Origin: Shinella kummerowiae
GTDB lineage: Bacteria; Pseudomonadota; Alphaproteobacteria; Rhizobiales; Rhizobiaceae
Direction: 5' to 3'
Assembly: GCF_009827055.1 (NCBI RefSeq)
Contig: NZ_WUMK01000012.1
Location: forward strand, 1 to 64,000
Length of the DNA stretch: 64,000 nucleotides
The notes under the pieces were generated by a model. That model ran no database searches. It saw only the letters and a program-made list of their open reading frames with translations, and was not told where the DNA came from. Both the position numbers and the translations under genes were made by a program. Every line of letters starts with the position of its first letter. The stretch's first letter is position 1. Shown in pieces: positions 29,659 through 36,016 of the stretch.

Positions 29659-29760
29659 GGCGTCCCCCTCGTGATCCTGTCGCTTACCCAGATATAGGGC
29701 GCGGGGCATTGGTGTCGCCACTGTTCTTTTGTATCAAGAGCAGGGAGGTGCGGTTCGCCC

Positions 29761-30654
29761 ATGATAGACAAGCTCGAATATTTCATTGCCCTTGCCCGCG
29801 AACGACATTTCGCCCGGGCCGCGGAAGAACTCGGCATTTCGCAGCCGACGCTTTCAGCGGCGATCCGCCAGCTTGAGGAGCAGCTCGGCGTGATGCTGGT
29901 CGTGCGTGGTTCCCGCTTCCAGGGCCTGACGCCCGAGGGCCAGCGTGTGCTGGAATGGGCGCGCCGCATCGTCGGCGACACCCGCACCATGCGCGAGGAA
30001 ATGCGCGCCGCGCGCAAGGGCCTGTCCGGCCATATCCGTCTTGCCGCCATCCCGACGACGCTTGCCATGGTGCCGCACATCACCGCGCCGTTTCAGGAAA
30101 AGCACCCCGACGTCACCTTCTCGATCCTCTCCACGACCTCGATCAAGATCCTCGGCCTGCTCGAAAACCTCGAGATCGACGCCGGCCTCACCTATCTGGA
30201 AAACGAGCCGCTCGGCCGCGTCACCAGCGTGCCGCTGCTGCATGAGCACTATTGCCTCGTCACCGCCAAGGGCAACGCCTTCGCTGATCGCGAAACCGTG
30301 ACCTGGCAGGAGGCCGGCAATATTAGGCTTTGCCTATTAACTGCCGACATGCAGAACCGCCGCATCATCAACCGCCACTTCGCCGAAGCGGGCGTTACAG
30401 TCGAGCCGTCGCTCGAAGCGAACTCGATGATCGTGCTGTTCTCGCATGTGCGCACCGGACGCTGGTCCAGCATCATGCCGAGAAATGTCGCAAAATCATT
30501 TGGATTTCCTGACGAAATAAGTATAGTTTCCCTTGTCGACCCTGAACCGCATCACACTGTCGGTCTCGTCGCCACCCACCGCGAGCCTTTCACCCCGCTC
30601 GTCTCCGCCTTGCTGCACGAAGCCCGTGTGCTGGCGGAAAAAGGGATCGATTGA
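29761..30654 (+). CDS. LysR-family regulator of the formate dehydrogenase operon
   Basis: A 297-residue LysR protein with the winged helix-turn-helix at 1-60 (ERHFARAAEELGISQPTLSA) and a substrate-binding domain after about residue 90. It lies 184 bases before fdsG in the same direction, so it is the likely activator/repressor of fds (FdsR-like) responding to formate; that is context-based. The gene is GC-rich except for two AT-rich stretches (30319-30342 and 30493-30528) with rare codons. The first reads as a palindrome resembling the one over its own stop codon. Confidence 0.85.
   Translation: MIDKLEYFIALARERHFARAAEELGISQPTLSAAIRQLEEQLGVMLVVRGSRFQGLTPEGQRVLEWARRIVGDTRTMREEMRAARKGLSGHIRLAAIPTTLAMVPHITAPFQEKHPDVTFSILSTTSIKILGLLENLEIDAGLTYLENEPLGRVTSVPLLHEHYCLVTAKGNAFADRETVTWQEAGNIRLCLLTADMQNRRIINRHFAEAGVTVEPSLEANSMIVLFSHVRTGRWSSIMPRNVAKSFGFPDEISIVSLVDPEPHHTVGLVATHREPFTPLVSALLHEARVLAEKGID
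30322..30339. promoter_or_regulatory. operator-like palindrome inside the LysR gene
   Basis: ATTAGGC-TTT-GCCTATTA carries arms TAGGC and GCCTA around TTT. It matches the TAGG-N-TTT-N-CCTAT core of the palindrome at 30652-30670. It is encoded by a run of rare codons (ATT AGG CTT TGC CTA TTA) in an otherwise GC-rich gene, which suggests selection on the DNA sequence. Confidence 0.45.
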
Positions 30655-30670
30655 TAGGATTTTCCTATCA
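30652..30670. promoter_or_regulatory. LysR-type palindrome at the fds promoter
   Basis: TGATAGGA-TTT-TCCTATCA has perfect 8-bp arms, overlaps the LysR stop codon and lies 126 bases before a TATAAT. It contains the ATAG...CTAT form seen in LysR sites. Confidence 0.6.
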
Positions 30671-30795
30671 GCCAACGGCTTTGCTTTATTGACCCGCCGC
30701 CTCCGGACTGAGAAGCTGTCCGGATAGTCCGCGTGGATCGACAGGGTTCCGGTCTTCGCCGAGCAGTTTCAATGGCATCGGCGCGCCAGAACCCG

Positions 30796-30838: not shown

Positions 30839-31315
30839 ATGAATGTGCACGTGACCGGCGATATCGGAGCGAGGACGCTGGCAATTGTCAGCGACCTGAA
30901 GGGGCTCGAAGGGCCGCTTCTTCCCATCCTGCATGAAATCCAGGCCGAGTTCGGCTATGTGCCGCAGGAATGTCTGCCGGTCATCGCGGCCGAACTGAAC
31001 CTGTCCCGCGCCGAAGTGCATGGCGTCGTCACCTTCTATCATGACTATCGCGACCACCCGGCCGGACGCCATGTCCTGAAGCTCTGTCGCGCCGAGGCCT
31101 GTCAGTCGATGGGCGGGGACGAAATCGCCGAGCGCGTCAAATCGCTGCTCGGCATCGATTTCCACCAGACGACGCTGGATGGCGCCGTGACGCTCGAACC
31201 GATCTACTGTCTCGGGCTCTGTTCGTGCGCACCCGCCGCGATGCTCGACGGCGAGGTGCATGGACGGGTCGATGCAGACCTTGCCAGGGAACTTGTTGCG
31301 GAGGCACGCCGATGA
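30839..31315 (+). CDS. fdsG: NAD-dependent formate dehydrogenase gamma subunit
   Basis: A 158-residue thioredoxin-like [2Fe-2S] protein related to NuoE. Ligand cysteines are C83, C88, C124 and C128 (C-x4-C and C-x3-C). It passes electrons between FdsA and FdsB in the soluble molybdenum formate dehydrogenase. The start at 30839 follows a GGGAGG site by 7 bases; an in-frame TTG at 30824 contains that site and is unlikely. Its stop overlaps the fdsB start (ATGA). Confidence 0.94.
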   Translation: MNVHVTGDIGARTLAIVSDLKGLEGPLLPILHEIQAEFGYVPQECLPVIAAELNLSRAEVHGVVTFYHDYRDHPAGRHVLKLCRAEACQSMGGDEIAERVKSLLGIDFHQTTLDGAVTLEPIYCLGLCSCAPAAMLDGEVHGRVDADLARELVAEARR

Positions 31316-32868
31316 CCGTTCGCATCTACATTCCCCGCGATGCCGCCGCCCTTGCGCTCGGCGCCGACCGCGTCGCCAAGGCGTTGGCCGGTGAGGCGGA
31401 TGCCCGCAAGCTCGACATCAAAATCGTGCGCAACGGTTCACGCGGCATGCATTGGCTGGAGCCGCTGGTCGAGGTCGAGACCGCCGAAGGCCGCATCGCC
31501 TACGGGCCGGTGAAGCCGTCCGATGTCGCCTCCCTGCTCGATGCCGGCCTCCTTGAAGGCAAAGCCCATGCGCTCTGTCTTGGCGGAACGGAAGACATTC
31601 CGTTCCTGAAAAACCAGACCCGCCTCACCTTCGCCCGCTGCGGCGTCATCGATCCGGTTTCGCTGGACGACTACAAGGCTCATGGCGGCCTGAAGGGCCT
31701 GGAAAAAGCCATCACCATGGCCCCGGTCGAGGTCGTCAAGGAAGTCACCGATAGCGGCCTGCGCGGTCGCGGCGGTGCCGGCTTCCCGACGGGCATCAAG
31801 TGGAAGACCGTGCTCGACGCACCCGGCGACAGAAAATACATCGTCTGCAATGCCGACGAGGGCGACAGCGGCACCTTTGCCGACCGCATGATCATGGAGG
31901 GTGATCCCTTCGTGCTGATCGAGGGCATGGCGATCGCCGGCCTCGCAACCGGCGCCACCAAGGGCTACGTCTACACCCGCTCGGAATATCCGCACGCCAT
32001 CGCTGTGATGAACGAAGCGGTCACCGTCGCGCGCACCGCCGGCGTGCTCGGACCTTCGGTGCTTGGCTCGGGAAGAGCCTTCGACATGGAAATCCGCGTC
32101 GGCGCAGGCGCCTATGTCTGCGGCGAGGAAACCGCCCTGCTCAACAGCCTCGAAGGCAAGCGCGGCATCGTGCGTGCCAAGCCGCCGCTCCCGGCGTTGC
32201 AGGGCTTCATGGGCCGTCCGACGGTCGTCAACAACGTCATCTCGCTCGCCTCCGTGCCCGTCATCATGGACAAGGGTGCCGCCTATTACCGCGACTTCGG
32301 CATGGGCCGCTCGCGCGGCACGATCCCGCTCCAGATCGCCGGCAACGTCAAACATGGCGGCCTCTACGAGACCGCCTTCGGCCTGACGCTCGGCGAGATC
32401 GTCGATACGATCGGTGGCGGCACGGCCTCCGGCCGCCCGGTTCGCGCCGTGCAGGTGGGTGGCCCGCTCGGCGCCTATTTCCCGCGCGCGCTGTTCGACA
32501 CGCCCTTCGACTACGAGGCCTTCGCGGCCAAGGACGGCCTGATCGGCCATGCCGGCATCACCGTCTTCGACGACACCGTCGACATGCTGAAGCAGGCGCG
32601 CTTCGCCATGGAGTTCTGCGCCGTCGAGAGTTGCGGCAAGTGCACGCCCTGTCGTATCGGCTCGACGCGCGGCGTCGAGACCGCCGACAAGATCGCGAGA
32701 GGCGTCGAGCCGGAGAAGAACCGCGCCCTGCTCGCCGATCTCTGCAACACGATGAAATTCGGCTCGCTCTGCGCGCTGGGCGGCTTCACGCCCTATCCTG
32801 TCATGAGCGCCATGACCCATTTCCCGGAAGACTTTTCGCCGGCTCCTCTGGTGGAGGCTGCGGAATGA
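31312..32868 (+). CDS. fdsB: NAD-dependent formate dehydrogenase beta subunit (diaphorase)
   Basis: The 518-residue FMN- and NAD-binding subunit related to NuoF, preceded by a NuoE-like N-terminal region. It shows the NADH/FMN motif GLRGRGGAGFPTG (near 150), the FMN segment ICNADEGDSGTFADR, and the [4Fe-4S] cysteines in ESCGKCTPCRIGSTR with a later Cys in GSLCALGG. It reduces NAD with electrons from formate. The ATG at 31312 overlaps fdsG by 4 bases, and the stop overlaps the DUF4287 gene by 4 bases. Confidence 0.95.
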   Translation: MTVRIYIPRDAAALALGADRVAKALAGEADARKLDIKIVRNGSRGMHWLEPLVEVETAEGRIAYGPVKPSDVASLLDAGLLEGKAHALCLGGTEDIPFLKNQTRLTFARCGVIDPVSLDDYKAHGGLKGLEKAITMAPVEVVKEVTDSGLRGRGGAGFPTGIKWKTVLDAPGDRKYIVCNADEGDSGTFADRMIMEGDPFVLIEGMAIAGLATGATKGYVYTRSEYPHAIAVMNEAVTVARTAGVLGPSVLGSGRAFDMEIRVGAGAYVCGEETALLNSLEGKRGIVRAKPPLPALQGFMGRPTVVNNVISLASVPVIMDKGAAYYRDFGMGRSRGTIPLQIAGNVKHGGLYETAFGLTLGEIVDTIGGGTASGRPVRAVQVGGPLGAYFPRALFDTPFDYEAFAAKDGLIGHAGITVFDDTVDMLKQARFAMEFCAVESCGKCTPCRIGSTRGVETADKIARGVEPEKNRALLADLCNTMKFGSLCALGGFTPYPVMSAMTHFPEDFSPAPLVEAAE

Positions 32869-33136: not shown

Positions 33137-36016
33137 ATGTCCCTCGTCCCCGAAATCGACTACGGCACGCCCGCCTCCCGCGCGGAAAAGATGGTGACGC
33201 TCACCATCGACGGGAACGAGATCACCGTTCCGGAAGGCACCTCCATCATGCGCGCCTCGATGGAGGCCGGCATCAAGGTTCCAAAACTCTGCGCCACGGA
33301 CATGGTGGACGCCTTCGGCTCCTGCCGCCTCTGTCTCGTCGAGATCGAAGGCCGCAACGGCACGCCCGCCTCCTGCACGACGCCGGTGGCGCCCGGCCTT
33401 GTCGTCCACACCCAGACCGGCCGGTTGAAGGACATCCGCAAGGGCGTGATGGAGCTCTATATCTCCGACCATCCACTCGACTGTCTGACCTGTGCGGCCA
33501 ATGGCGACTGCGAATTGCAGGACATGGCCGGTGCGGTCGGCCTGCGCGACGTGCGCTATGGCTATGAGGGCGACAACCACGTCAAGGCCCGCAACAGCGG
33601 CGAAATCAACGCCAAGTGGATGCCGAAGGACGAATCGAACCCCTATTTCACCTATGATCCGTCGAAATGCATCGTCTGTTCGCGCTGCGTGCGCGCCTGC
33701 GAAGAGGTGCAGGGCACATTCGCGCTGACCATCGAAGGACGCGGCTTCGGCAGCCGCGTCTCGCCCGGCATGCACGAGCATTTCGTCGATTCCGAATGCG
33801 TCTCCTGCGGCGCCTGTGTGCAGGCCTGTCCGACGGCGACGCTGACCGAAAAATCCGTCATCGACATCGGCCAGCCGGAACATTCCGTGGTCACCACCTG
33901 TGCCTATTGCGGCGTCGGCTGCTCCTTCAAAGCGGAAATGCGCGGCGAGGAGCTGGTCCGCATGGTGCCGTGGAAGGACGGCCAGGCCAATCGCGGCCAT
34001 TCCTGCGTCAAGGGCCGCTTCGCCTATGGCTATTCGACCCACAAGGACCGCATCCTCAACCCGATGATCCGCGAGAAAATCTCGGATCCGTGGCGCGAAG
34101 TCACCTGGGACGAGGCCTATGCCCATGTCGCCGCCGAGTTCCGCCGCATCCAATATCAGTATGGCCGCGATTCGATCGGCGGCATCACCTCGTCGCGCTG
34201 TACGAACGAAGAAACCTATCTCGTCCAGAAGCTGATCCGCGCCGGCTTCGGCAACAACAATGTCGATACCTGCGCCCGCGTCTGTCATTCGCCGACCGGC
34301 TACGGTCTCGGCCAGACCTTCGGCACCTCCGCCGGCACGCAGAATTTCGATTCGGTCGAGCACACGGACGTCGTCATCGTCATCGGTGCCAACCCGACGG
34401 ACGGACACCCGGTCTTCGCCTCGCGCCTCAAGAAGCGCCTGCGCCAGGGCGCAAAGCTCATCGTCATCGATCCGCGCCGCACCGAACTCGTCTCCTCGCC
34501 GCACATCAAGGCGTCCTATCACCTGCCGCTGAAGCCCGGCACCAATGTCGCCGTCGTCACAGCCCTTGCCCATGTCATCGTGACGGAAGGCCTCTATGAC
34601 GAGCGCTTCATCCGCGAGCGCTGCGACTGGTCGGAATTCGAGGACTGGGCCGCCTTCGTCGCCGAGCCCCGGCACAGCCCCGAGGCGATCGAGCAGTTCA
34701 CCGGCGTCGATCCGGAGACGCTGCGCGGCGCCGCACGACTGTTCGCCACCGGCGGCAACGGCTCGATCTATTACGGCCTCGGTGTCACCGAACACAGCCA
34801 GGGCTCGACGACGGTCATCGCCATCGCCAACCTCGCCATGGCCACCGGCAATATCGGCCGCGAGGGTGTCGGCGTGAACCCGCTGCGCGGCCAGAACAAC
34901 GTGCAGGGCTCATGCGACATGGGCTCCTTCCCGCACGAGCTGCCGGGTTATCGGCACATCTCCGACGACGCGACCCGCGAGATTTTCGAAAAGCTCTGGG
35001 GCGTGAAGCTCAACAACGAGCCGGGCCTGCGCATCCCAAATATGCTGGACGCCGCCGTCGAGGGCACGTTCAAGGGCCTCTATATCCAGGGCGAGGACAT
35101 CCTCCAGTCCGATCCGGACACCAAGCACGTCTCCGCCGGCCTCGCCGCGATGGAATGTGTCGTCGTGCAGGATCTCTTCCTCAACGAGACGGCGAACTAC
35201 GCCCATGTCTTCCTGCCGGGCTCGACCTTCCTGGAAAAGGACGGCACCTTCACCAATGCCGAGCGCCGCATCAACCGCGTTCGCCGCGTCATGACGCCGA
35301 AGAACGGCTATGCCGACTGGGAAGTCACGCAGAATCTCGCCCAGGCGATGGGCCTCAACTGGAACTACCGCCACCCGTCCGAGATCATGGACGAGATCGC
35401 CGCGACCACCCCGAGCTTCGCCCTCGTCTCGTACGACTATCTCGAGAAGATGGGCTCCGTGCAGTGGCCGTGCAACGAGAAGAGCCCGCAAGGCTCGCCG
35501 ATCATGCACATCAACGGCTTCGTACGCGGCAAGGGTAAGTTCATCCGAACGGAATATGTCGCAACCGACGAAAAGACCGGCCCGCGCTTCCCGCTGCTGC
35601 TCACCACCGGCCGCGTGCTCAGCCAGTACAATGTCGGTGCGCAGACACGCCGGACGGAAAACGTCGTCTGGCATGAGGAAGACCGGCTGGAAATCCATCC
35701 GCACGACGCCGAAAACCGCGGCATCCGCGATGGCGACTGGGTGCGCCTGGCAAGCCGCGCCGGCGAGACAACCTTGCGTGCGCTGGTGACCGACCGTGTG
35801 GCGACCGGCGTGGTCTATACGACCTTCCACCACCCGACGACGCAGGCAAACGTCATCACCACCGATTTCTCCGACTGGGCGACGAACTGTCCGGAGTATA
35901 AGGTGACGGCTGTGCAAATCTCGCCGTCGAACGGTCCGTCCGACTGGCAGATCGAGTATGACGAGCTGGCGCGCCGGTCCCGCCGGATCGCCGGCAAGCT
36001 GGAGGCGGCTGAGTAG
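33137..36016 (+). CDS. fdsA: NAD-dependent formate dehydrogenase alpha (catalytic) subunit
   Basis: This molybdenum-bis-MGD subunit (959 residues) oxidises formate to CO2. In order it has an N-terminal [2Fe-2S] ferredoxin domain (CATDMVDAFGSCRLC), a NuoG-type His/Cys [4Fe-4S] region (HPLDCLTCAANGDC), two [4Fe-4S] ferredoxin clusters (CIVCSRCVRAC and CVSCGACVQACP), and a further cluster (CAYCGVGCSF). The molybdopterin domain follows, with Cys383 (in CARVCHSPT), the likely molybdenum ligand. A molydopterin-dinucleotide binding domain ends the protein (about 840-950). An independent ribosome site (CGGAGG) precedes its ATG. Confidence 0.97.
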   Translation: MSLVPEIDYGTPASRAEKMVTLTIDGNEITVPEGTSIMRASMEAGIKVPKLCATDMVDAFGSCRLCLVEIEGRNGTPASCTTPVAPGLVVHTQTGRLKDIRKGVMELYISDHPLDCLTCAANGDCELQDMAGAVGLRDVRYGYEGDNHVKARNSGEINAKWMPKDESNPYFTYDPSKCIVCSRCVRACEEVQGTFALTIEGRGFGSRVSPGMHEHFVDSECVSCGACVQACPTATLTEKSVIDIGQPEHSVVTTCAYCGVGCSFKAEMRGEELVRMVPWKDGQANRGHSCVKGRFAYGYSTHKDRILNPMIREKISDPWREVTWDEAYAHVAAEFRRIQYQYGRDSIGGITSSRCTNEETYLVQKLIRAGFGNNNVDTCARVCHSPTGYGLGQTFGTSAGTQNFDSVEHTDVVIVIGANPTDGHPVFASRLKKRLRQGAKLIVIDPRRTELVSSPHIKASYHLPLKPGTNVAVVTALAHVIVTEGLYDERFIRERCDWSEFEDWAAFVAEPRHSPEAIEQFTGVDPETLRGAARLFATGGNGSIYYGLGVTEHSQGSTTVIAIANLAMATGNIGREGVGVNPLRGQNNVQGSCDMGSFPHELPGYRHISDDATREIFEKLWGVKLNNEPGLRIPNMLDAAVEGTFKGLYIQGEDILQSDPDTKHVSAGLAAMECVVVQDLFLNETANYAHVFLPGSTFLEKDGTFTNAERRINRVRRVMTPKNGYADWEVTQNLAQAMGLNWNYRHPSEIMDEIAATTPSFALVSYDYLEKMGSVQWPCNEKSPQGSPIMHINGFVRGKGKFIRTEYVATDEKTGPRFPLLLTTGRVLSQYNVGAQTRRTENVVWHEEDRLEIHPHDAENRGIRDGDWVRLASRAGETTLRALVTDRVATGVVYTTFHHPTTQANVITTDFSDWATNCPEYKVTAVQISPSNGPSDWQIEYDELARRSRRIAGKLEAAE

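Follow-up and report, generated by a model that had tools for sequence, protein, structure and literature searches.

The window, that is, the whole stretch of 64,000 nucleotides of Shinella DNA analysed here, carries the gene of a LysR-type transcriptional regulator (LTTR) upstream of the formate dehydrogenase genes fdsGBA, all on the forward strand. The regulator gene (29761..30654; 297 aa) shows the domains PF00126 (HTH_1) and PF03466 (LysR_substrate) above cut-off. Its name, fdsR, was given from its position beside the fds genes, and the top NCBIfam match of its product is CynR, under the cut-off of that family. The gamma subunit is encoded by fdsG (30839..31315; NF004638 above cut-off), a NuoF-like subunit by fdsB (31303..32868; TIGR01959 below cut-off, together with its operon position), and the alpha subunit by fdsA (33137..36016; TIGR01591 above cut-off). 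The start codons of fdsG and fdsB are our choice. The closest named records to this locus are from Shinella, with proteins 90-97% identical. On the 5' side of fdsR, toward a divergent gene which is oxidoreductase-like by our reading, the sequence GATATAGGGCGCGGGGCATTGGTGYCGCCACTGTTCTTTTGTATCAAG (29691-29738) is mostly kept across Shinella, and it is absent among the recurrent operator-matrix matches given below.

The main operator, TTGATAGGATTTTCCTATCAG (30651..30671, forward strand), overlaps the stop codon of fdsR. The motif (G)ATAG-N7-CTAT was located near the end of fdsR in 161 of 188 loci, namely in all 21 loci of the genus, all 26 of the family and all 80 named records, as well as in 31/40 further family loci and 3/20 from outside the family. 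Its flanks yield the consensus TYGATAG-N7-CTATCRA, in which the search pattern itself dictates ATAG and CTAT. In 138 distinct operator contexts, TATTGA is kept at 97-100% per base. The element RACGG...TTATTGACC (30674..30694, forward strand) contains the probable -35 (TTGACC, 30689-30694) of a putative fdsG promoter, and it is possibly an activation half-site. In two loci (L143 and L144) the fdsR frame reads through the operator and stops just past TTATTGACC, which places the putative -35 within the coding sequence.

A second site of interest lies inside fdsR, where codons 188-193 (30322-30339) read ATT AGG CTT TGC CTA TTA (I R L C L L). The original prediction described here a palindrome, TAGGC-TTT-GCCTA, built from rare codons and sharing its core with a second palindrome over the stop codon of the gene. 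Both observations hold. The palindrome is read at 30324-30336, and AGG, CTA and TTA are each used once in fdsR; CTA and TTA are missing from fdsG, fdsB and fdsA, and AGG occurs twice in fdsG. The core TAGG-N-TTT-N-CCTAT is common to this site and to GATAGGATTTTCCTATC (30653-30669), which spans the fdsR stop. LTTR binding boxes have the form T-N11-A with dyad symmetry, and this form is found from T30324 to A30336. The internal box, TAGGCTTTGCCTA (30324..30336, forward strand), is identical to the reported palindrome, corresponds in frame to codons 188-192, and was recognized from its sequence, genome matches, synonymous constraint and rank against an operator matrix. The extent of the palindrome needs correction, as the constrained unit reaches about 30341 and both palindromes are T-N11-A boxes. 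The best kept part is the right half-site CTATTRAC (30334..30341, forward strand), in which codons 192 and 193 are retained and which is similar to the operator half-site CTATCRA.

The pattern TAGGNTTTNCCTA has two exact matches in the genome of 6,342,832 bases, that is, the box and the fdsR stop codon. When one mismatch was allowed, 24 genome matches were counted vs 27 in the reversed control, and TAGGN5CCTA with up to one mismatch was found three times in the window vs 3.8 expected. Since neither of the loosened patterns is enriched, the evidence for the site comes from the exact pair and even more from conservation. A wider cluster of such boxes was rejected, in view of these counts and because no third site recurs in most loci.

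Conservation was examined in 128 homologues, comprising 21 loci of the genus with one paralogue, 26 of the family and 80 named records. For the codon tests the paralogue L030 (44%) was dropped and identical rows were merged, leaving 106 distinct Rhizobiaceae orthologues. Codon 190 is CTT in 100/106 and codon 192 is CTA in 103/106, with three Fitch steps each on the nucleotide tree, and codon 193 is TTG in 101 and TTA in four of the 106, with four steps. Over the 27 leucine codons whose residue is conserved to 90% or more, the three included, the mean is 24.1 steps, and the next lowest have 14. Relative to their residue class, codons 190, 192 and 193 have the fewest steps of all codons tested, a ranking which covers codons with a residue at least 90% conserved, in classes with at least four such columns. 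Residues L190, C191 and L192 are invariant and L193 is nearly so. At codon 188 the residue varies among Ile, Val and Leu (13 changes), and the third base is T in 101/106 with three changes, in comparison with 13-30 third-base steps in 13 other Ile/Val/Leu columns. The six-codon segment from codon 188 gave an observed/expected ratio of 0.223 (four informative codons), the lowest of 201 segments, and none of 5000 within-residue permutations was as low (lowest permuted value 0.235). The constraint ends at codon 194, with 33 changes of the third base.

The original prediction expected synonymous sites in the palindrome to be more conserved than those of flanking codons, and codons 188, 190, 192 and 193 are so. 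As codons 190, 192 and 193 are constrained and the third base of codon 188 remains T despite the residue changes, selection acts on the nucleotides. Judged from these alignments, selection on DNA at codons 188-193 is very probable, within one large group of Rhizobiaceae.

Elsewhere in fdsR, three further codons are unusually constant at synonymous positions: Ser222 TCG (30424; 102/106), Ser237 AGC (30469; 99/106) and Phe249 TTT (30505; 102/106).

What is conserved is a T-N11-A box and not the palindrome. The constant part is T-N-G-N-CTTTGYCTATTRAC, whose right half (CTATTGA) is good and whose left half is poor, and the most frequent core is TCGGCTTTGTCTATTGAC (56/106). The arms TAGGC/GCCTA are exact in just 15/106 orthologues, all of the genus of the window and 13 of them with the TTT centre, so the palindrome is ruled out as the conserved unit. 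The exact 13-mer is also present in L138, which was fetched later and stands outside the 106. In the Shinella box the symmetry is made by AGG and TGC. An RNA hairpin or attenuator was rejected as well, since the stem is not kept and its pair 2-12 is broken by CGG in 69/106 rows. Nine Rhizobium loci (L218, L219, L222, L223 and L227-L231) read NTC AGG CTC TGT CTA/CTG; in these, AGG appears while the first and the central T are both lost.

The likeness of the box to the operator was assessed with a matrix built solely from 112 distinct operators at the fdsR stop/fdsG promoter. The box (30320-30340, score 9.7) takes second place in the entire window, behind the operator. In the matrix and spacing counts, a box means the strict pattern with a found operator; the strict box is present in 119/188 loci, and near-boxes (e.g., L039, L111 and L125) are counted as no box. 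None of the 27 loci lacking the operator has a strict box, so the counts hold. With identical loci left unmerged, the box is the top match of its gene in 110/119 box-bearing loci and never falls below third place in the 119. Among the 90 boxes devoid of TAGG, 81 rank first in their gene. The same position in the 69 loci with no strict box has a median rank of 96, and seven of them are at rank 1. Within flanks of about 1.5 kb, shorter for some stretches, the only matrix sites recurring in most box-bearing loci are the box (104/119, score >0) and the operator; a match at codon 4 was seen in 16/119. The paralogue L030 was retained in the matrix ranking, the recurrence scan and the clade tree. By this operator-only matrix, the box matches the operator of the regulated promoter, its left half-site being weak.

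These results support the original prediction in part. The selection it suggested for an internal binding site is supported at the level of DNA and by the best operator-like match in those 110 loci, but it does not extend to the palindrome itself. A "downstream" site is correct with respect to the start of fdsR, but relative to the fdsG-promoter operator the box is 331 bp upstream.

In the phylogeny, the box (up to two mismatches) is found in 110/167 distinct loci, all within one clade of 114, whose exterior is box-free by construction and whose node is weakly supported (0.544). Four members of the clade (L028, L125, L139 and L150) have no box, and the five Fitch steps fit one gain and four losses. 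Outside the clade the codons are typically CTG CCG CTC TGC CTG CTG, and the operator is often retained. Pro189 is found in none of the 110 box-bearing leaves vs 48/57 of those with no box, which is essentially one evolutionary event.

The string CTTTGYCTATTGAC was found in 126/148 Rhizobium genomes (129 matches vs two in the reversed control) and in 16/16 genomes of a second genus, that of G091. Of six places with this string that were fetched, three (L235, L237 and L238) have no fdsR match and are operator-free within 620 bases; these are taken as chance matches among the 129. Among the 22 Rhizobium genomes lacking the string, 15 have fdsR at the cut-off used, with variant boxes in which CTATTGAC or CTATTAAC is still present in 12/15 and the first T of T-N11-A is missing in 10/15. 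The loss of this T, along with the four box-free members of the clade, indicates that the box is dispensable.

The distance from the T of the box to the T of the operator is 331 bp in 109/119 box-bearing loci. The other ten show 330 (four loci), 340 (three), 415, 426 and 427 bp. These deviations (-1, +9, +84, +95 and +96), perhaps three or four events, differ from 331 by whole helical turns, give or take 1.5 bp; with 10.5 bp to a turn, the 331 bp themselves amount to 31.5 turns, which is not a whole number. Box and operator within a gap range of 31 bp were matched in 123/148 Rhizobium genomes, and all 123 listed spans, as read by eye, are of 342 bases, i.e., 331 bp. Three genomes (G558, G588 and G649) were missed by the pattern because their operator ends in CTATT, and their spacing is also 331. 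Together with the variant-box loci (15/15), the spacing is 331 bp in 141/141 Rhizobium fdsR examined. Spacings of +1 to +31 were found in none of 394 family genomes, taken irrespective of whether they carry the box, and the three +9 loci (L068, L071 and L079) belong to another collection, so this zero has little weight; the form of the pattern is sound, as its sister pattern gave the 123/148 matches. Among the 42 loci that have the operator but no strict box, 16 also show 331 bp and the rest are scattered. Since the length of the protein also preserves the spacing, its constancy may hint at looping.

As to the binder, an operator of the fdsG type, GATAGGGAATTCCTATC, is located upstream of a gene for an FdhF/YdeP-family oxidoreductase (G000:C22:360232-360248; L197, 3733-3749). 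This gene is present in 12/21 genomes of the genus. The operator holds a fixed position (within 1 base) in 11/12 anchored Shinella loci, with a variable 7-bp core, and is missing from the twelfth (L214), a second gene copy; the anchoring left out four distant homologues. GATAG-N7-CTATC has five exact places in the genome and no enrichment with up to one mismatch (103 matches vs 101 in the control). The same type of operator before the FdhF/YdeP gene connects the motif with genes related to formate and hence with FdsR, a link drawn from two of the five exact places. On this basis FdsR is the likely binder of the box.

Three Shinella loci (L204, L207 and L208) have, some 420 or 840 bp before the FdhF/YdeP operator, an additional and weaker box (TTAG..CCTATCCA; scores 8.8-10.6), which may be auxiliary as well.

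The reading which we favour, with moderate confidence, is that the box is a putative auxiliary FdsR operator inside the fdsR coding sequence, which probably works together with the operator at the promoter. An FdsR dimer would occupy the weak, half-site-dominated box, and a tetramer would bridge, through a DNA loop, the 331 bp to the strong operator downstream. Such a loop would determine how firmly fdsGBA are held in check in the absence of formate and how they are induced, and it may in addition slow the transcription of fdsR itself. The preferred mechanism, looping to the fdsG promoter, is proposed tentatively, at a little short of an even chance. It counts against the auxiliary operator that the boxes and the operators have a common phylogeny. 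In most species the left half-site is poor (TCGG vs TYGATAG), so affinity may be low. This weakness, the losses and the degree to which the spacing is trivial argue against a critical role, and the box is probably a modulator.

The main rival, rather unlikely in our estimate, is that FdsR on the box stalls RNA polymerase within fdsR with no loop, as a form of negative autoregulation. The box does stand in the path of fdsR transcription, and no site near the fdsR promoter is among the 25 commonest matrix positions of box-bearing loci, so autoregulation would need another place. However, transcription could be blocked already by the strong operator over the fdsR stop, a box dominated by one half-site would make a poor block, and loci with no strict box are also mostly free of promoter sites (nine matches up to 60 bp upstream in 69 loci).

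Selection on the message, through a conserved translational pause at the rare leucine codon CTA or a small-RNA target in fdsR mRNA, is improbable. It would account for the retention of CTA in 103/106 orthologues and for the invariant or nearly invariant residues 190-193. Unlike in a pause, the codons CTT and TTG and the T at codon 188 are each retained on their own while TGC/TGT and CGG/AGG are exchanged; moreover, the string fits a DNA operator matrix, and the hairpin pairing is broken in most species.

Still less probable is a site of another transcription factor or a promoter element. TTGAC resembles a -35 and the same TATTGACC occurs in the fdsG promoter, but the likeness of the box is to an FdsR-type operator, and at the expected -10 (codons 200-202, CGC CGC ATC) the third bases of codons 200 and 201 change 27 and 28 times. 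A sigma-70 promoter with its -35 at TTGAC was rejected, since nothing similar to TATAAT is seen by eye 16-18 bp further on in the window. A chance drift of rare codons into a palindrome, with which the unenriched loosened patterns in genome and window would agree, is hardly credible against the deep synonymous conservation and the 126 Rhizobium genomes, and is contradicted by the alignment.

With respect to the evolution of the putative auxiliary operator, its gain in one Rhizobiaceae ancestor may have fixed residue 189 (Pro to Arg/Ser), so that the amino-acid sequence of the regulator would be set in part by its own putative looping site through codons of dual use. This is a speculative proposal, which we consider unlikely.

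In Cupriavidus necator, a formate-inducible promoter is assigned to FdsR with a 4.5-fold range (Table 1 of PMC7057948); one set-up gave no significant induction, and an internal site is not mentioned in the passages of that paper dealing with this promoter. The literature searched, of partial coverage, names no internal FdsR site in its titles and abstract openings.

The box would provide a clear case of regulatory DNA concealed in a coding sequence, of a kind that annotation would miss; it was found via synonymous constraint and is backed by an independent operator matrix. It predicts a tuning of formate oxidation in rhizobia. It is also a warning that codon optimization or recoding of a regulator gene can delete an operator. 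Its apparent gain in a single clade, followed by a small number of losses, offers a natural experiment in the acquisition of a regulatory function by coding sequence.

Auxiliary operators within coding DNA which act by looping are known from lac O2 in lacZ and from the internal gal operator. These belong to other protein families, their host gene is not that of the regulator, and for FdsR the loop is a prediction. A closer parallel is CatR of Pseudomonas putida, also of the LysR type, for which a box within catB is regarded as auxiliary, acting together with the promoter sites. Both cases concern a LysR-type regulator and an auxiliary box within a coding sequence, putative for FdsR. The CatR box lies beyond its promoter, in the first structural gene, whereas that of FdsR is carried by the gene of the regulator itself, on the upstream side of the target promoter, and is marked by synonymous conservation across several genera.
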